From Paludibacteraceae bacterium (GTDB lineage Bacteria > Bacteroidota > Bacteroidia > Bacteroidales > Paludibacteraceae), in NCBI GenBank assembly GCA_017628395.1, contig JAGBZD010000025.1, positions 1 through 53,872 on the forward strand: a stretch of 53,872 nt of DNA, read 5' to 3'. The position numbers were made by a program, and so were the translations under genes. The notes beneath the pieces are model-generated. The model did not search any database. It was not told the DNA's origin and worked only from the letters and a program-made list of their open reading frames with translations. This document shows, piece by piece, positions 7,670 through 53,082 of this stretch. The number at the start of each line of letters is the position of its first letter. Position 1 is the stretch's first letter.

Positions 7670-9020
7670 TATTTTTGACAGTTGGCTATTGGCTATTGGC
7701 TGTTGGCTATTGGCAAGTGGCTGTTTGGCACAGGACAACATCATTGATGAAGTGATATGGATAGTCGGCGAAGAAGCTATCTTGCGTAGCGAAGTAGAGG
7801 AAGAGCGTTTGCGGGCTCAGTATGAAGGACAACCCATTTCGGGCGACCCATACTGCGTAATCCCCGAACAGTTGGCTATTCAAAAACTATTCCTGCACCA
7901 AGCCGAATTGGATTCCGTGGAAGCTAACGAATCGTCCGTAAGCAGCCAAGTGGACATGCGCATGAATTACTACATCTCGCAGATTGGTAGCAAAGAGAAA
8001 ATGGAAGAATACTTCCGTAAAACCAGCAGCGAGATTCGCGAAGAAATGATGACCGCAGTACGCCATCAGATGATTATTCAGCAGATGCAAAGCAAACTGA
8101 CAGCAGACATTCAGCCCACACCAGCCGAAGTGAGACGCTACTACAATTCGCTGAGTGTAGACTCTCTCCCTATGGTGCCTGCGCAAGTGGAAGTGCAGAT
8201 ACTGAGTATTGAGCCACCCGTACCGGTGGAAGAAACAGAGCGTATCAAATCGCAATTGCGCGAATTTACAGAGCGCGTTACCAGCGGTAAAGCCGACTTT
8301 AGCATGTTGGCTCGCTTATACTCAGAAGATACCGAGTCGGCAAAACGCGGTGGTGAGTTGGGTTTTGTGGGCAAAGGACAATTGGTGAGCGCTTTTGCTG
8401 ATGTAGCGTTCAATCTCACTGACCCCAAACGCGTATCGCGCATAGTAGAAACCGAATACGGCTACCATATCATTCAGCTCATTGAGCGCAAAGGCGACCG
8501 CATCAATTGCCGACATATATTGCTCAAACCACGCGTTTCGTACATGGACAAGCAAAATGCAGTGGCACGCTTGGACTCTATACGCACTCTGGTGCTAACA
8601 GATAGTCTGTCTTTCGAACGAGCAGTAGCACAATTCTCCGAAGATAAATCCACCCTCATGAACGGTGGACTCATGACCAACCCCACTACAGGTGCCAGCA
8701 AGTTTGAATACCAAGACCTGCCACCTGAGATTGCACGACAAATATACAGCATGAAAGAGGGCGACATAAGCGCACCTTTCACCATGATGGACCGCTCGAA
8801 AAACAAAGAAGTATGTGCCATCGTGCGACTGAAAACCAAACGCGAATCACACAAAGCCAACCTCACCGATGACTTCCAAATCATTCGCAACATACTCATG
8901 GAGAAACTCAGCGGAGAAACTATTGACCAATGGATCCGCAACAAACAAAAAGAAATATATGTTCATATCGACCCCAACTGGCGCGGGTGCGACTTCCAAT
9001 ATCCAGGTTGGGTGCATTGA
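7659..9020 (+). CDS. SurA-type periplasmic peptidyl-prolyl isomerase
   Basis: The product has 453 residues: a signal peptide, a helical chaperone domain (~25-170) and two parvulin domains (~170-275 and ~285-390). The second shows 'CRHILLKP', 'FSEDKST..GG' and 'EGDISAPF'. It should escort unfolded outer-membrane proteins through the periplasm. The signal peptide (SWLLAIGCWLLASGCLAQ) is encoded by a run of 7-base repeats (7682-7730), so its hydrophobic core comes from repeat DNA. Changes of one copy would shift the frame. It lies in an operon with the lipoprotein before it and the OstA-like gene after it. Confidence 0.88.
   Translation: MKNNIFDSWLLAIGCWLLASGCLAQDNIIDEVIWIVGEEAILRSEVEEERLRAQYEGQPISGDPYCVIPEQLAIQKLFLHQAELDSVEANESSVSSQVDMRMNYYISQIGSKEKMEEYFRKTSSEIREEMMTAVRHQMIIQQMQSKLTADIQPTPAEVRRYYNSLSVDSLPMVPAQVEVQILSIEPPVPVEETERIKSQLREFTERVTSGKADFSMLARLYSEDTESAKRGGELGFVGKGQLVSAFADVAFNLTDPKRVSRIVETEYGYHIIQLIERKGDRINCRHILLKPRVSYMDKQNAVARLDSIRTLVLTDSLSFERAVAQFSEDKSTLMNGGLMTNPTTGASKFEYQDLPPEIARQIYSMKEGDISAPFTMMDRSKNKEVCAIVRLKTKRESHKANLTDDFQIIRNILMEKLSGETIDQWIRNKQKEIYVHIDPNWRGCDFQYPGWVH
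7682..7730 (+). repeat. Heptanucleotide tandem repeat (TTGGCTA) in surA signal peptide
   Basis: Seven successive 7-base units read TTGGCTA, TTGGCTA, TTGGCTG, TTGGCTA, TTGGCAA, GTGGCTG and TTTGGCA. Seven is not a multiple of three, so gain or loss of one unit changes the reading frame. Confidence 0.8.
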
Positions 9021-14372: not shown

Positions 14373-15346
14373 AGATTCTGATAGCACCACTCAACTGGGG
14401 ACTGGGGCATGCCACCCGTTGTATCCCGCTTATCCGCCACTATTTGGCAGCGGGCGACGAAGTGGTGCTGGGCGGAGATGGCGAGAGCATAAGACTGCTT
14501 CGCCAGACTTTTCCTGCATTGCGTGTGATAGACTTACCTTCGCTGGAGTTGCACTATACCGACAATAATCAACAACGCGGATTCTACCTGCGCACCATAC
14601 CCGCACTCATACGCTTCACCATAGCCGACTACTACTATCTTCGCCAGCAGTTGGCGATAGAGCATTTCGATTTGGTTATTTCAGACAACCGCTTTGGGCT
14701 TTTCTCGCACCAAACACACTGCGTATATATGACGCACCAGCTCTATGTGCAATTGCCCAAGCGCTTGAAGATATTCCAACCCCTCGCCCGTGCGCTGCAC
14801 GCGTGTATATATAAGAGGTTTAACGAAGTATGGGTACCCGACTATGCCGACCCTACCAATAATCTGTCAGGAGCCTTGTCCCACGGTGGTCGTTTCGACC
14901 GCCATGCCAAGTACATCGGACCGCTATCGCGATTCAGCAATTTGGAGTCTGGAAGCCGGCATCCGGAAAAACCAACTGGTCTCCAGAAGCCGGAAGCCGG
15001 ACACCCCATTCTCGCCGTTCTCTCAGGATTAGAGCCCCAACGCACATTGTTTGAGCAAGCGCTCATCGCCCGTTTCAAAGATAGTACACAGCCTGTCTTA
15101 ATCGTTCGAGGAAAAATAGGCGGTCCTGCCACTACCACGCAAATAGGCGCAGTAACGCTGGTGCCGCAGATGAACGATGAACAACTGGTTCCGCTCATGC
15201 TGCAAGCAAAAAAAATAATCGTGCGTAGTGGCTACAGCACGATTATGGATTTATCCGTATTGGGTTTGCTATCCAAAGCAGAGTTCCACCCCACTCCCGG
15301 TCAAAGCGAACAAGAATACCTCTCCACTCTCACCTCTCACCTTTAA
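14369..15346 (+). CDS. Glycosyltransferase (MurG/family 28-like), altered C-terminus, 325 aa
   Basis: The start MKILIAPLNWGLGHATRCIPLIRHYLAAGDEV is the UDP-sugar glycosyltransferase family 28 pattern (GxGHxxR). The C-terminal half has 'ILAVLSGLEPQRTLFE', 'VLIVRGK' and 'IVRSGYSTIMDLSVLGLLSKAEFHPTPGQSEQEYL', as in nucleotide-sugar binding domains. The linker at residues ~192-212 is encoded by 'GAAGCCGG' repeats. After EQEYL, where homologs keep a further C-terminal segment, the protein ends in LSTLTSHL, encoded by a CACCTCT/CTCACCT repeat. I infer that repeat DNA has replaced the natural end. The acceptor is unknown. Confidence 0.8.
   Translation: MKILIAPLNWGLGHATRCIPLIRHYLAAGDEVVLGGDGESIRLLRQTFPALRVIDLPSLELHYTDNNQQRGFYLRTIPALIRFTIADYYYLRQQLAIEHFDLVISDNRFGLFSHQTHCVYMTHQLYVQLPKRLKIFQPLARALHACIYKRFNEVWVPDYADPTNNLSGALSHGGRFDRHAKYIGPLSRFSNLESGSRHPEKPTGLQKPEAGHPILAVLSGLEPQRTLFEQALIARFKDSTQPVLIVRGKIGGPATTTQIGAVTLVPQMNDEQLVPLMLQAKKIIVRSGYSTIMDLSVLGLLSKAEFHPTPGQSEQEYLSTLTSHL
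14945..15004 (+). repeat. GAAGCCGG/CATCCGG repeats inside coding sequence
   Basis: GGAAGCCGG, CATCCGG, GAAGCCGG and GAAGCCGG encode ESGSRHPEKPTGLQKPEAG in the linker of the glycosyltransferase. The related words CATCCGGTTGCCGG occur in the spacer at 23350-23372. Confidence 0.65.
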
Positions 15347-15349
15347 CCT

Positions 15350-15412
15350 ATCTTCAAGGCGCTCTGCGCCAATCTTCAGCCACGAAGTGGCAATCTTCAG
15401 CCCGTTAGGGCG
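15350..15412 (+). repeat. Tandem units: constant AATCTTCA plus changing perfect hairpin
   Basis: Three units share (A)ATCTTCA. Their cores are GGCGC-tct-GCGCC (15358-15370), GCCAC-gaa-GTGGC (15379-15391) and GCCC-gtta-GGGC (15400-15411). Each core is a perfect mini-hairpin of different sequence. The array lies between two convergent genes, so the hairpins may also act as a bidirectional terminator. Confidence 0.85.
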
Positions 15413-15414
15413 AT

Positions 15415-17712
15415 CTAACACCCACCTAAATAAGCATGCATGGCTTGCGCTGCTTTTCTGCCGTCAGCCATAGCAAGGATAACGGTAGCACCACCTCGAA
15501 CAATATCTCCGCCTGCAAATAGCATAGGCAATGATGATTGCATCTGCTCATTGACCACAATTGTTCCTTTCTTGGATATCTCCAAGCCAGCTACGGTTGA
15601 TGGAATCAATGGGTTTGGACTCACGCCTACGCTCACGATAACCAAATCCACAGGCAGCGTGACGGTCTTTCCTTCTACGGCTACAGGACTACGGCGTCCT
15701 GACTCATCAGGCTCGCCTAAGGTCATTACTTGCAGCACCGCTTTTGCTACACGCCCTTGTTCATTAGCGTGATACTCCACTGGGTTATGCAGGGTCATAA
15801 ACTCAACACCCTCTTCTTTGGCATGGCGCACTTCCTCCACGCGGGCGGGCATCTCCTCTTCGCTACGACGATATACGATGATGACACGCTCTGCTCCCAA
15901 TCGTTTGGCAGTGCGCACGGCATCCATAGCTGTGTTGCCACCTCCAACCACCATCACGGTCTTCGCCCGCAGCAGTGGTGTATCATTATCTTGTGCGGCA
16001 GCGCCCATGAGGTTCACACGCGTGAGGTACTCGTTGCACGACATTACACCGTTGAGGTTCTCGCCTGGGATATTCATGAAGCGTGGCAATCCTGCTCCGC
16101 TACCAACAAAGATACCCTTATATCCTTGCGCTTGCAAGTCCTCTATGGTCAGTGTCTTACCAATAATCGTATCGCATTGAAAGGTCACACCCAGTCGGCG
16201 CAATCCCTCTATCTCGCGGTCCACAACAGCATTGGGCAAACGAAACTCTGGGATACCGTAGCGCAATACGCCACCCACCTCGTGTAATGCTTCAAACACC
16301 GTCACTTGGTAACCGAACTTAGCCATATCACCAGCAAAAGCCAAGCCAGCAGGACCACTACCCACTACTGCTATCTTCTTGCCTTTCGCCTCTTGCCTTT
16401 CGCCTTTCACCTCTAATTTACTATTATCCGCCACAAAGCGCTCCAGATAACCTATAGCCACCGCTTCCTTGCCCATTTTCACATGGATACATTGCGCCTC
16501 GCATTGTTTCTCTTGTGGGCATACGCGTCCGCATACAGCAGGCAATGTGCTGCTCTGTTGAATCACTGCTGCGGCACCCAATATATTGCCAATCTCCAGT
16601 TGCTTGATAAAACCAGGGATATTGATATTCACAGGACAACCCTTCACACAAGTAGGATTCTTGCAATCCAAGCAGCGATGTGATTCGGTGATGGCTTGCT
16701 CCATGGTCAAACCTTGGTTCACCTCTTCATATAAGGACTGAACACGCACTTCGGGTGCCAGTTCTGGCATCTTTACGCGTGGAATAGCAACTCTGTCTTT
16801 TGCTTTTCCTGTAAATGGTGCTACTACTGTCGCCTCCGTATCCTTTATTCCCTCTTGTGTTCGATTTGACGATGGAACCACCTCTGCCTCACTATGGTGT
16901 TGATATTCTTCATATGCTCCTCTTTCCTCCGCAGTGTATTGTCGTAAACGGGATAACATCTCATCAAAATCCACGGCATGGGCATCAAACTCAGGACCGT
17001 CCACGCAGACGAACTTCGTCTTACCTCCTACCGTCACGCGGCACGCGCCACACATACCCGTGCCGTCCACCATGATAGTGTTCAGACTGGCTTCGGTAGG
17101 AATATCGTATTTCTTTGTAGTCAGTGCCACAAACTTCATCATGATAGCAGGACCGATAGTGATGCATTTATCCACCTGCTCGCGCTGAATGACTTGCTCC
17201 ACGCCCATGGTCACCAATCCCTTTTGCCCTAACGAACCATCATCGGTCATGATGATCAGTTCATCCGACACCGCAGCCAACTGCTCACGCAGAATGATGA
17301 GTTCTGCCGTACGGGCTGCTAATACGGTGATGACGCGGTTGCCTGCTTCTTTGAGGGCGCGTGCAATAGGCAACATAGGTGCTGCACCCACGCCGCCACA
17401 AGCACAGACCACCGTGCCGAAGTGCTTAATCGTGGTGGCTTTGCCCAATGGCCCTACCAAGTTTGCCACTTCATCGCCCGCCTCAAGTGCCACCAGTTTG
17501 CTACTACTCACACCTATGCGTTGCACCACCAGTGTGATAGTACCGCGTTCCGTATCCGCATCAGCAATAGTGAGTGGCATGCGTTCGCTATGTTCATCCA
17601 CACGCACCATCACAAAGTGACCAGCGCGACGACTATTCGCAATCAGCGGAGCTTCTAATACAAGCTCCGCCACATTCTCAGAGAAGAATCGTTTTGATAT
17701 AATCTTTGCCAT
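15415..17712 (-). CDS. Fused NfnA-NfnB-type ferredoxin:NADP oxidoreductase / GltD-like, 765 aa
   Basis: Residues 1-~275 are a ferredoxin-NADP reductase/DHODH-B-like subunit, with the FAD region 'RMPLTIADADTERGTITLVVQ', the NAD region 'CGGVGAAPMLPIARAL' and 2Fe-2S cysteines in 'GTGMCGACRVTVGGKTKFVC'. Residues ~320-765 are a glutamate-synthase-small-subunit-like oxidoreductase: 4Fe-4S cysteines 'CLDCKNPTCVKGCPV', FAD loop 'GSGPAGLAFAGD', NADPH loop 'GGGNTAMDAV'. This resembles NfnAB, which balances NADH, NADPH and ferredoxin in anaerobes. The exact electron partners cannot be told. The segment LEVKGERQEAKGKK (~432-446), just before the FAD loop, is encoded by repeat DNA. It is the last gene of the pyrE operon. 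Confidence 0.87.
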   Translation of the reverse strand: MAKIISKRFFSENVAELVLEAPLIANSRRAGHFVMVRVDEHSERMPLTIADADTERGTITLVVQRIGVSSSKLVALEAGDEVANLVGPLGKATTIKHFGTVVCACGGVGAAPMLPIARALKEAGNRVITVLAARTAELIILREQLAAVSDELIIMTDDGSLGQKGLVTMGVEQVIQREQVDKCITIGPAIMMKFVALTTKKYDIPTEASLNTIMVDGTGMCGACRVTVGGKTKFVCVDGPEFDAHAVDFDEMLSRLRQYTAEERGAYEEYQHHSEAEVVPSSNRTQEGIKDTEATVVAPFTGKAKDRVAIPRVKMPELAPEVRVQSLYEEVNQGLTMEQAITESHRCLDCKNPTCVKGCPVNINIPGFIKQLEIGNILGAAAVIQQSSTLPAVCGRVCPQEKQCEAQCIHVKMGKEAVAIGYLERFVADNSKLEVKGERQEAKGKKIAVVGSGPAGLAFAGDMAKFGYQVTVFEALHEVGGVLRYGIPEFRLPNAVVDREIEGLRRLGVTFQCDTIIGKTLTIEDLQAQGYKGIFVGSGAGLPRFMNIPGENLNGVMSCNEYLTRVNLMGAAAQDNDTPLLRAKTVMVVGGGNTAMDAVRTAKRLGAERVIIVYRRSEEEMPARVEEVRHAKEEGVEFMTLHNPVEYHANEQGRVAKAVLQVMTLGEPDESGRRSPVAVEGKTVTLPVDLVIVSVGVSPNPLIPSTVAGLEISKKGTIVVNEQMQSSLPMLFAGGDIVRGGATVILAMADGRKAAQAMHAYLGGC
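16377..16415. repeat. TTGCCTTTCGCC-type repeats inside nfn coding sequence
   Basis: Tandem GCCTTTCGCCTCTT words (coding strand GGCGAAAGGCAAGA) sit in the linker before the FAD loop. Similar words fill the spacer directly upstream of this gene at 17719-17757. Confidence 0.7.
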
Positions 17713-25026: not shown

Positions 25027-25062
25027 ACGATTCTACACAATTCTACACCATGCTACACCATG
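25027..25062. repeat. 10-bp tandem repeat between gyrB and LOG gene
   Basis: TTCTACACAA, TTCTACACCA and TGCTACACCA have period 10. On the coding strand these are TTGTGTAGAA/TGGTGTAGAA, the same 10-mer that forms the array at 45044-45116. Confidence 0.75.
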
Positions 25063-25063
25063 C

Positions 25064-27094
<2,031 letters not shown>

Positions 27095-28308: not shown

Positions 28309-28344
28309 TTTAGATTTCTGCCCGTCAGGGCAAGGAGATATAAA
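28309..28344 (+). repeat. Dispersed repeat with variable hairpin core, copy 2
   Basis: The flanks TTTAGATTTCT and AAGGAGATATAAA surround the core GCCC-gtca-GGGC. In copy 1 (2448-2481) the core is GCC-ata-GGC. Confidence 0.6.
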
Positions 28345-28544: not shown

Positions 28545-28643
28545 CCGATACATAACCGATACATAACCGATACATAACCGACACATAACCGATACATATG
28601 AATACCCCGTGAATACTCCCCGAATACCCCATGAATACCCCAA
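28545..28643. repeat. Two abutting 11-bp tandem arrays
   Basis: Five units of CCGATACATAA (28545-28599) run without a gap into four units of GAATACCCCNN (28600-28643). Both have the same 11-base period but unrelated sequence. Confidence 0.85.
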
Positions 28644-36851: not shown

Positions 36852-36898
36852 ACACGAAACAGTAGGCGCTCTGCGCCGTCCACTAAACAATAAAACAT

Positions 36899-44592: not shown

Positions 44593-45057
44593 ATGCGGTT
44601 AAAAAGTAATATCAACATAAAAAATAGGCGTGCCACTTTTGATTATGAAGTGCTGGATAAATATACAGCAGGTATTCAACTCTTCGGAACAGAAATCAAA
44701 TCCATTCGAGAAAGCAAAGCTTCACTCGCAGATACCTACTGCCAATTCATCGGCAACGAACTGTGGGTAAAACAAATGCATATAGCCGAATACCGATTCG
44801 GCACATACACCAACCACGACGCAAAACGAGACCGCAAACTGCTAATGACACGCAAAGAACTACGCAAACTGCAAAAACAAGTACAAGACACAGGCAAAAC
44901 CATTATCCCACTACGACTCTTCATCAACGAAAAAGGACTCGCAAAAATGGAAATAGCACTCTGCCAAGGTAAACACTCCTACGACAAAAGACAAGCACTA
45001 AAAGACGCCGACGACAAAAGAGAACTACAACGAGTAATGGCGTTTAGAGTGGTGTAG
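44593..45057 (+). CDS. smpB: SsrA-binding protein SmpB, 154 aa
   Basis: SmpB carries tmRNA to stalled ribosomes. The product has the full OB-fold pattern: '[42 protein letters not shown]', '[29 protein letters not shown]', '[41 protein letters not shown]'. The stop codon lies inside a 10-base tandem repeat that begins at the last codons. No tmRNA gene was recognised in the window. Confidence 0.95.
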
Positions 45058-45116
45058 AGTTGTGTAGAGTTGTGTAGAATGGTGTAGAGTGGTGTAGAAT
45101 GGTGTAGAGTGGTAGA
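45044..45116 (+). repeat. 10-bp tandem array GGTGTAGAGT
   Basis: About seven units (GGTGTAGAGT, TGTGTAGAGT, TGTGTAGAAT and so on), starting within the end of smpB and running to 11 bases before the holB ATG. The reverse complement lies at 25027-25062. Confidence 0.85.
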
Positions 45117-45127
45117 GGTAATAAGAT

Positions 45128-52263: not shown

Positions 52264-53082
52264 TTAGAGATAGCGTTTGATTTGTACTAAATGGTGGGTT
52301 AGTTCGCCATTTGAGAGATGGATTCCTTGCTCATTAATGGCATCTATATGCACGCAACCTGAGCAGTGAATAATCTCCGTAGAACTGAGTAGCAATCCCA
52401 CATGCGAGATGTTGGTGGCTTTTGGGTCGCGGTCAGCATGGTCAAAGAATGCCAAGTCGCCCGGTTGTGCTTCTGCCAACGAAGGAACAAGTACCCCTTG
52501 CGTCATTTGCTCGCGAGCATTGCGCAGGAGATTCACACCAAAAGTTGCATATACCACTTGCGTGAAGCCCGAGCAGTCCATACCCATGGCGTTCTTTCCG
52601 CCCCAAAGGTAGGGGGCGTTGAGCAACGATTGGGCAATCGTTGCGAGATCGCTACGCTGTAGATCACTCTGTTGTAGATCGGCTTCGCCTGTAGATCGCT
52701 GCGCTGTAGTGATATTGACACAAGTGGGATCGATGAGGTATTGTTGACCAAGGACTTCGAATGTGCCGTGGGAGTAGTTGGGTAGGCGTGTGCCGAGGGT
52801 GAGCATTAGTTCTTCGCCTGTTTCCATAGCAGTGGCAATGGCCATTGGGACAGCCACGGTTGTTCGGGTATTGGATATTGGGTATTGGGTGTCGGTGGGG
52901 GTAAGCATCTTAAAGTCCACCCACCCCTCTTGTCCGTCCATGGTGGAGCGGATTTTGGTCCAGCGGGGGAGTTGGTCTAAGACTTCGCATACTTCACCAA
53001 AAAGCAATTGGGTGAGTTGTTCGCTTCCTTCTGACGGCTCTTGGCGCACGGGAGTGACAGTGCAATGATTGATAGCAAACAT
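52264..53082 (-). CDS. NlpC/P60 peptidase with SH3 domain, 272 aa
   Basis: The N-terminal bacterial SH3-like region (~1-120) is followed by an NlpC/P60 domain with catalytic Cys in 'MDCSGFTQVVYATFG' (~169-175), 'PGDLAFFDH' and His in 'ISHVGLLLSST'. This layout is that of gamma-D-glutamyl-diamino acid peptidases (dipeptidyl-peptidase VI type) that trim cell-wall peptides. No signal peptide is seen, so it likely works in the cytoplasm on recycled peptides. Residues ~125-146 (RSTGEADLQQSDLQRSD) are encoded by GATCTAC repeat DNA between the two domains. Confidence 0.9.
   Translation of the reverse strand: MFAINHCTVTPVRQEPSEGSEQLTQLLFGEVCEVLDQLPRWTKIRSTMDGQEGWVDFKMLTPTDTQYPISNTRTTVAVPMAIATAMETGEELMLTLGTRLPNYSHGTFEVLGQQYLIDPTCVNITTAQRSTGEADLQQSDLQRSDLATIAQSLLNAPYLWGGKNAMGMDCSGFTQVVYATFGVNLLRNAREQMTQGVLVPSLAEAQPGDLAFFDHADRDPKATNISHVGLLLSSTEIIHCSGCVHIDAINEQGIHLSNGELTHHLVQIKRYL
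52645..52709. repeat. GTAGATC repeats with hairpin-like cores inside NlpC gene
   Basis: GTAGATC recurs three times. It separates cores GCTACGCT, ACTCTGTT, GGC-tt-CGCC-like and GCTGCGCT, adding about 20 residues to the interdomain linker. Confidence 0.7.

Follow-up and report, generated by a model that had tools for sequence, protein, structure and literature searches.

Among the repeats described so far, those closest to the array analysed here are the tagged REPs of the GTAG and CGTC super-families, short palindromes that carry an invariant, unpaired tag on one side (PMC3733652). According to the same source, their stems vary between families, with alternative complementary residues in the stem, and the repeats form clusters and inverted pairs and have intragenic copies, uvrA included. 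GTAG stems are 5-13 bp and CGTC stems 8-9 bp long; GTAG repeats are associated with a RAYT/Y1 transposase, whereas CGTC repeats, also present in Bacteroidetes, are described as having no dedicated transposase (PMC3733652).

The array considered here is located at positions 15350-15412 of the window, i.e., the whole 53,872-nt stretch of DNA from a Paludibacteraceae bacterium that was analysed. With a confidence a little above even, it is interpreted as belonging to a dispersed, REP/RPE-like family of tagged, very small palindromic repeats. Akin to tagged REPs, its units join a palindrome to a constant tag, have variable stems, form inverted pairs, have a copy in uvrA and were not found together with a transposase above the cut-off. 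Unlike GTAG and CGTC REPs, they have 7-nt tags, ATCTTCA/ATCTACA here and TCCAATA, TCCTATA and TCCTGTA in relatives, and stems of 2-6 bp, most commonly 2 bp (5, 5 and 4 bp in the focal array). The opposite strand of ATCTACA, TGTAGATC, contains GTAG, whereas the ATCTTCA form does not. Different stems within one array, head-to-tail units and a tag varying between species also set the family apart from tagged REPs. REPs are mainly extragenic and dispersed; in the present family many loci are intragenic, at least 7 of the 15 places examined in the genome of origin.

Cyanobacterial STRR are heptamer direct repeats, which likewise consist of 7-base tandem words, apparently with no hairpins between them. 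Rickettsia palindromic elements (RPEs) and Wolbachia palindromic elements resemble the present family in placing palindromic DNA within protein-coding genes. An RPE carries one long palindrome per insertion, unlike the several short hairpins of different sequence and the tiny tandem units of the arrays described here. RPE-1 itself is reported as a longer palindromic insertion (PMC3733652). The TAACTGA repeats of Beggiatoaceae are heptamer direct repeats too, apparently likewise without hairpins between the words (PMC4679880). The coding genes of Nematomorpha mitochondria contain perfect inverted repeats of up to 284 bp, alike in being perfect and coding but mitochondrial and apparently without a constant tag (PMC6649704). 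CRISPR loci, with 24-48 bp repeats and foreign non-repetitive spacers, differ from the 7-nt constant word and short palindromic variable part found here. No description of the repeat family was found in the open-licence literature searched.

Results

Focal array and its junction

The first-pass annotation had described three ATCTTCA units at 15350-15412, each with a different perfect hairpin, and this was confirmed on the sequence (Table 1). The array occupies the whole gap separating two convergent genes. The upstream gene, whose glycosyltransferase match reached 19.2 bits, far under the cut-off of 195.9, ends within the heptamer-like run that precedes the array, where its final codons and TAA stop (15344-15346) lie. 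The downstream gene, which encodes a fusion of the dihydroorotate dehydrogenase B NAD-binding subunit and NADPH-dependent glutamate synthase, has its TAG stop (15415-15417) on the minus strand of the terminal ATCTA. The R-ATCTA ending was also found in several other arrays.

For the 71 nt between 15347 and 15417, three separate hairpins were predicted (-14.9 kcal/mol, z = -3.98), with 1 of 200 dinucleotide shuffles being equal, and for the opposite strand (z = -3.36) none of 200 shuffles was as good. No intrinsic terminator, defined as a GC stem with a trailing T run, was detected in the region 15200-15600, and no Rfam family matched in the window at gathering scores. The word ATCTTCA alone was over-represented in the window (20 vs. 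8.7). The first palindrome, GGCGCTCTGCGCC, does recur alone as annotated, with the actual coordinates being 36865-36877 instead of 36862-36874; the 7-nt word that follows this lone hairpin and a G, TCCACTA, resembles the TCCAATA of relatives.

Table 1. Features of the window and other tagged arrays of the same genome (cells are empty where no value was given)
Feature	Position	Strand	Basis or annotation
Upstream gene, 325 aa	14369-15346	+	weak match: MJ1255/VC2487 family glycosyltransferase
Heptamer-like run CTCTCAC/CTTTAAC, immediately 5' of array	15320-15349	+	sequence
Unit 1: ATCTTCA (start 15350), A, GGCGC-tct-GCGCC (15358-15370; stem 5 bp, loop tct), A	15350-15371	+	sequence, folding
Unit 2: ATCTTCA (start 15372), GCCAC-gaa-GTGGC (15379-15391; stem 5 bp, loop gaa), A	15372-15392	+	sequence, folding
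Unit 3: ATCTTCA (start 15393), GCCC-gtta-GGGC (15400-15411; stem 4 bp, loop gtta), G	15393-15412	+	sequence, folding
Terminal partial tag ATCTA	15413-15417	+	sequence
Downstream gene, 765 aa, convergent	15415-17712	-	NF009414, above cut-off
Lone hairpin GGCGC-tct-GCGCC, then G and TCCACTA	36865-36877	+	intergenic
Second array, tag ATCTACA, cores GCGCAGC, GGCGAAGCC, ACAGAGT, GCGTAGC	about 52646-52709	-	in frame
Array in UvrA reading frame			TIGR00630, 717.8 bits, cut-off 729.8; frame leaves locus end
Array in MurF reading frame			TIGR01143, above cut-off
Array in YgiQ reading frame			TIGR03904, above cut-off
Array in sugar-epimerase-like gene			below cut-offs
Two arrays in one unnamed open frame			frame length 1,006 aa or more
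Array at/before start of RarA-like AAA ATPase gene			below cut-offs
Array at/before start of RimO gene			TIGR01125, above cut-off

Unit design and palindromy relative to controls

The repeat unit is composed of a 7-nt tag (ATCTTCA or ATCTACA), a perfect hairpin core and a purine (G or A), after which the following tag begins. The core has a stem of 2-6 bp and a loop of mostly 3-4 nt, its first base being G and its last C in almost all cases. Units of about 15-23 nt are arranged head to tail, sometimes as two arrays in opposite orientation, and such inverted pairs were seen among the intergenic arrays (L279, L280, L320 and L327).

The genome of origin (G000; 2,410,526 bases in 129 contigs, 81% complete) was searched with the pattern ATCTWCAN{5,17}ATCTW, which is palindrome-blind as it sets no pairing condition. 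The search returned 60 matches (35 + 25), compared with 25 (11 + 14) for the reversed control pattern. A spacer was considered palindromic if its full length paired, a leading A, where present, and one closing base being exempt. By this definition 28 of the 60 spacers were palindromic (shuffled spacers: mean 3.0, maximum 11 in 2000 rounds), and so were 19 of the 51 distinct ones (mean 1.9, maximum 8), and for stems of at least 4 bp the count was 8 (mean 0.14, maximum 3). The 32 non-palindromic spacers correspond to about the number expected by chance from the reversed control. A second palindrome-blind set from the same genome, with full tags required on both sides, combined the pattern loci, the window and one sample from this genome; it contained 14 palindromic units out of 27 and 11 palindromic distinct spacers out of 23, while two false pairing rules gave 0 and 0 and shuffles a mean of 0.7 (maximum 5). 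The first-pass annotation was to be refuted if units with this tag showed stems no more often than shuffled controls; the stems lie far above both the shuffles (19/51) and the false pairing rules (11/23 vs. 0), and they differ from unit to unit as it had described.

For all loci, with identical contexts counted once, 88/205 units and 40/123 distinct spacers were palindromic (false pairing rules 3 and 1; shuffles mean 5.0, maximum 13). Since this pool had been partly gathered by GC...GC-core patterns or chosen by eye and was biased to GC cores, the count was repeated without those loci, resulting in 46/142 units and 29/95 distinct spacers (false rules 2 and 1; shuffles mean 4.2, maximum 11). 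Further stretches together with the sample of the genome of origin yielded 13 palindromic spacers out of 33 distinct ones, which is no unbiased rate because the stretches came partly from contigs with known matches. In other families of the order (15 loci), 1 of 12 units was palindromic, at the level of the shuffles (mean 0.5).

The most common stems have 2 bp (GC-NNN-GC), the leading cores being GC-GCA-GC and GC-GAA-GC. Counted by context in a pool partly chosen for GC cores, GCGCAGC recurred 44 times, GCGAAGC 27 times and GCCCGCAGGGC 11 times. Among the loops of 32 distinct cores read on the tag strand, 13 were of the GNA type and none of the reverse complement type TNC. GNA loops in general share the stability of mini-hairpins. 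The d(GCGAAGC) mini-hairpin, which matches GC-GAA-GC, one of the commonest cores, and represents a physical property and not a biological system, was termed extraordinarily thermostable (PMC10527192). The non-palindromic spacers include compound ones with an internal tag and the plain octamer arrays of G034, and judging from their letters, cores such as GCGAGTATAACGAGC would pair only via tandem G-A mismatches. The longer cores GCGAGTGTAACGAGC and GTGAGCAACGCGAAC (L279:1913-1975, L289:966 and L297:1003) resemble hairpins with tandem G-A mismatches.

A false-pairing test of repeated words around any hairpin in G000 was uninformative (156 real vs. 133 and 149 among the matches listed). Covariation on alignments A1 and A2 was set aside as circular, because their rows had been preselected as palindromic. 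The wide pattern ATCTTCAN{8,18}ATCTTC matched 60 of 61 genomes and therefore is no family marker by itself.

Other loci and background tandem runs

Tagged loci in the genome of origin numbered 16 or more. Fifteen places were examined (14 tagged loci and the lone palindrome at 36865, with C105 and C109 left out), and at least 7 of them are inside long reading frames. The second array of the window sits inside an NlpC/P60-like gene (52264-53082, minus strand) whose profile match is below the cut-offs. The arrays of UvrA, MurF and YgiQ are in frame, and both orientations of array relative to gene occur; the remaining loci lie between genes or in unidentified frames.

Short imperfect tandem runs, mostly with periods of 7, 11 and 14, were abundant, with 65 detected in a 286-kb sample and 4, 0 and 1 in three shuffles. 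Examples from the window are located at 7681-7727, 25030-25064, 28545-28598 and 45045-45117, and phrases of such runs recur across loci, e.g., CCGATACATAA-like ones at window position 28545, L209:8047 and L211:13615. At 28319-28332 of the window the hairpin TGCCCGTCAGGGCA was noticed immediately 5' of AGGAGATATA, possibly at a ribosome binding site. Hairpin-less tandem octamers of the AATCTTCA type were observed at many places in G034 (e.g., L068-L091).

Relatives and other tags

The narrow unit pattern matched in 9 of 151 genus genomes, which is an undercount, since G014 was missed though its sample contains ATCTACA units. Samples of 12 genomes revealed the same design with other words. G014 has TCCAATA and TCCTATA, G167 has TCCTATA as well as an array that mixes TCCTACA, ACCTACA and ATCTACA, G078 has GTTTCAT/GTTGTAT, and G062 has a word of the GTGAAACCT type. 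In YgiQ of G014 the tag is TCCTGTA. Hairpin pairs sharing a word numbered 59 in the 12 genomes, part of them plain tandem runs, whereas one shuffle gave 2 and one false pairing rule 22.

Clusters of GC-rich hairpins, counted with no word condition and given as real number/mean of three shuffles, amounted to 35/25.3 in G000, 30/16 in G014, 14/5.3 in G167, 6/4.3 in G082, 5/1.7 in G062, 8/6.7 in G063, 13/3 in G078, 11/11.7 in G016, 16/14 in G026, 17/13.3 in G034, 5/3.3 in G008 and 0/5 in G029. The excess was weak or absent except in G014, G167, G078 and G062, and the new tags were therefore taken from reading the listed clusters. A regular array in which GTGAAACCT- and ATGAAACCT-type words alternate, with short hairpins, was seen at L383:1620-1790 of G062.

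Orthologous sites

At the focal junction the array was absent in six relatives with the same gene pair. No repeat was present there in G123 (also L122), at L123, in G078 and in G062, and G025 and G090 had a different, ACTCTACACC-like run; at L125, from a more distant seventh relative, a CGATTCAC run was found. The possibility raised in the first-pass annotation that the three cores are simply inherited in all relatives does not hold at this junction. The tag followed by GCCACGAAGTGGC occurred at no other place among 407 loci, with all nine matching loci overlapping the focal site.

In an alignment of MurF from ten genomes, tagged hairpins were present at site 1 only in G000 and G123. At site 2 these two genomes have a ACTCTACACA run, G078 has ATCTACA hairpins, G014 TCCAATA units, G025 and G062 a CTTCAGGGAGGGG element and G016 an unrelated stretch, and the insert is absent in G090, G167 and G063. 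Site 2 (L332-L341) thus displayed four unrelated kinds of small repeats across species of the genus, all in frame. In-frame insertions missing from orthologues, as in RPEs, were found by comparing MurF and YgiQ with relatives; UvrA was compared with the sister species, G123, alone and the array was common to both. In the P60 gene, G000 and G167 (L124) have an identical tag and site. One core is probably common to the two, as the sequences GCGTAGC and GCGCAGC would differ by a loop change alone, and the other cores are unlike in sequence and number.

Decay and turnover of stems

Between G000 and G123, four common arrays with a total of 13 cores could be aligned, three of them in ygiQ, uvrA and murF and the fourth being array two of the C126 frame; substitutions were counted by eye and the numbers are small. 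Two stem substitutions were identified, both of which break a pair and are uncompensated, together with two loop and five tag substitutions. One further broken stem was detected between L306 (G160) and L299 (G086), and in an array close to a conserved gene, G000 and G078 are identical in three cores (C110 vs. L281). The compensatory change in neighbouring units put forward in the first-pass annotation is not supported by these data, in which both stem substitutions relative to G123 break a pair. Such uncompensated substitutions indicate that compensation after insertion does not maintain the perfect stems, and the diversity of cores is ascribed to units being gained and turned over. Perfect pairing seems to mark young or conserved units rather than to result from compensation.

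Discussion

The comparison revealed a dispersed family of tagged palindromic units with gain or loss and turnover, in which common arrays decay via ordinary point mutation. The family is clade-specific. REPs are thought to propagate via their transposase, with the hairpin in single-stranded DNA. By analogy, the propagation of the present units would require a hairpin in single-stranded DNA beside the tag, in which case units with intact stems alone would multiply. Tandem duplication, together with exchange between loci, may account for the growth and turnover of arrays, and neighbouring units would then come from a pool containing many types of core. This explanation needs no compensation within the array.

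The Y1_Tnp domain (PF01797) was above the cut-off in none of the nine carriers, draft genomes 62-94% complete in which absence is not proof. Two of 20 genomes had it above the cut-off, both of them non-carriers, and the carrier G025 had one partial match below it. The family was consequently filed as REP/RPE-like and not as REP, and a RAYT-driven REP was rejected on the same grounds. A virus as the carrier was also rejected, as two scans of viral contigs returned 0 and 1 match, the single one being chance-like and within a large reading frame. Against the preferred interpretation, stems of 2 bp are the commonest and could be a sequence habit rather than structure; the tags are unlike GTAG/CGTC and vary between species, and only four arrays were compared.

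A dedicated process writing new perfect hairpins beside the tag, as also raised in the first-pass annotation, e.g., fold-back synthesis or an arm-copying enzyme, could account for the dozens of distinct perfect cores beside few tags, for a design that stays constant while the tag changes between species, and for the P60 site, where the tag is kept but the majority of cores are different in both sequence and number. It also has an in vitro precedent in the stem-loop synthesis from two terminal base pairs described for human Pol theta (PMC11292364). Such a process is nevertheless unlikely, since identical core types turn up at numerous loci, as explained by the copying of existing units, the stems end at the tag, which is not copied, and no birth of a core was observed. 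The more specific proposal that a machinery of the clade would write perfect hairpins de novo beside the tag, in and between genes, with the tag being replaced between species, is rather improbable. Propagation and reshuffling from a pool of hairpin types fits the data as well as, or better than, the writing of hairpins.

Neutral tandem slippage combined with quasi-palindrome correction, i.e., intrastrand template switching, would keep stems perfect with no mobile element at all. Short tandem runs are abundant in the genome (65 in the 286-kb sample), and template-switch mutation in imperfect palindromes is a known phenomenon (PMC7202029, PMC3820800). The two stem substitutions between G000 and G123 were, however, left uncorrected, as was the broken stem of L306 vs. 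L299, and neither the fixed tags with differing stems nor the arrays reaching new genes are explained, which makes this scenario quite doubtful.

Hairpins under locus-by-locus selection, with a role in termination, RNA processing or protein binding, would suit an array placed between convergent genes and folding significantly on both strands. This is very improbable given the lack of a terminator-like site in 15200-15600 and of an Rfam family in the window, the many arrays within reading frames on either strand, and the missing focal array in six relatives. Chance or composition, i.e., an ATCTTCA tandem repeat with unrelated palindromes, deserves hardly any credence: it could draw on the over-represented ATCTTCA (20 vs. 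8.7 in the window), the hairpin-less AATCTTCA octamer arrays of G034 and the single palindromic unit out of 12 in other families, but it conflicts with the shuffle and false-pairing controls within the clade and with the recurrence of the design with other tags.

Read as a REP/RPE-like family, the arrays described here would extend the tagged palindromic repeats to a form in which the sequence of the hairpin is free and only its shape and a 7-base tag are kept, and such repeats sit inside core genes (UvrA and MurF). As relatives with common, empty and differently filled sites are available, the origin and spread of REP-like repeats without a transposase may be tested here by comparison.
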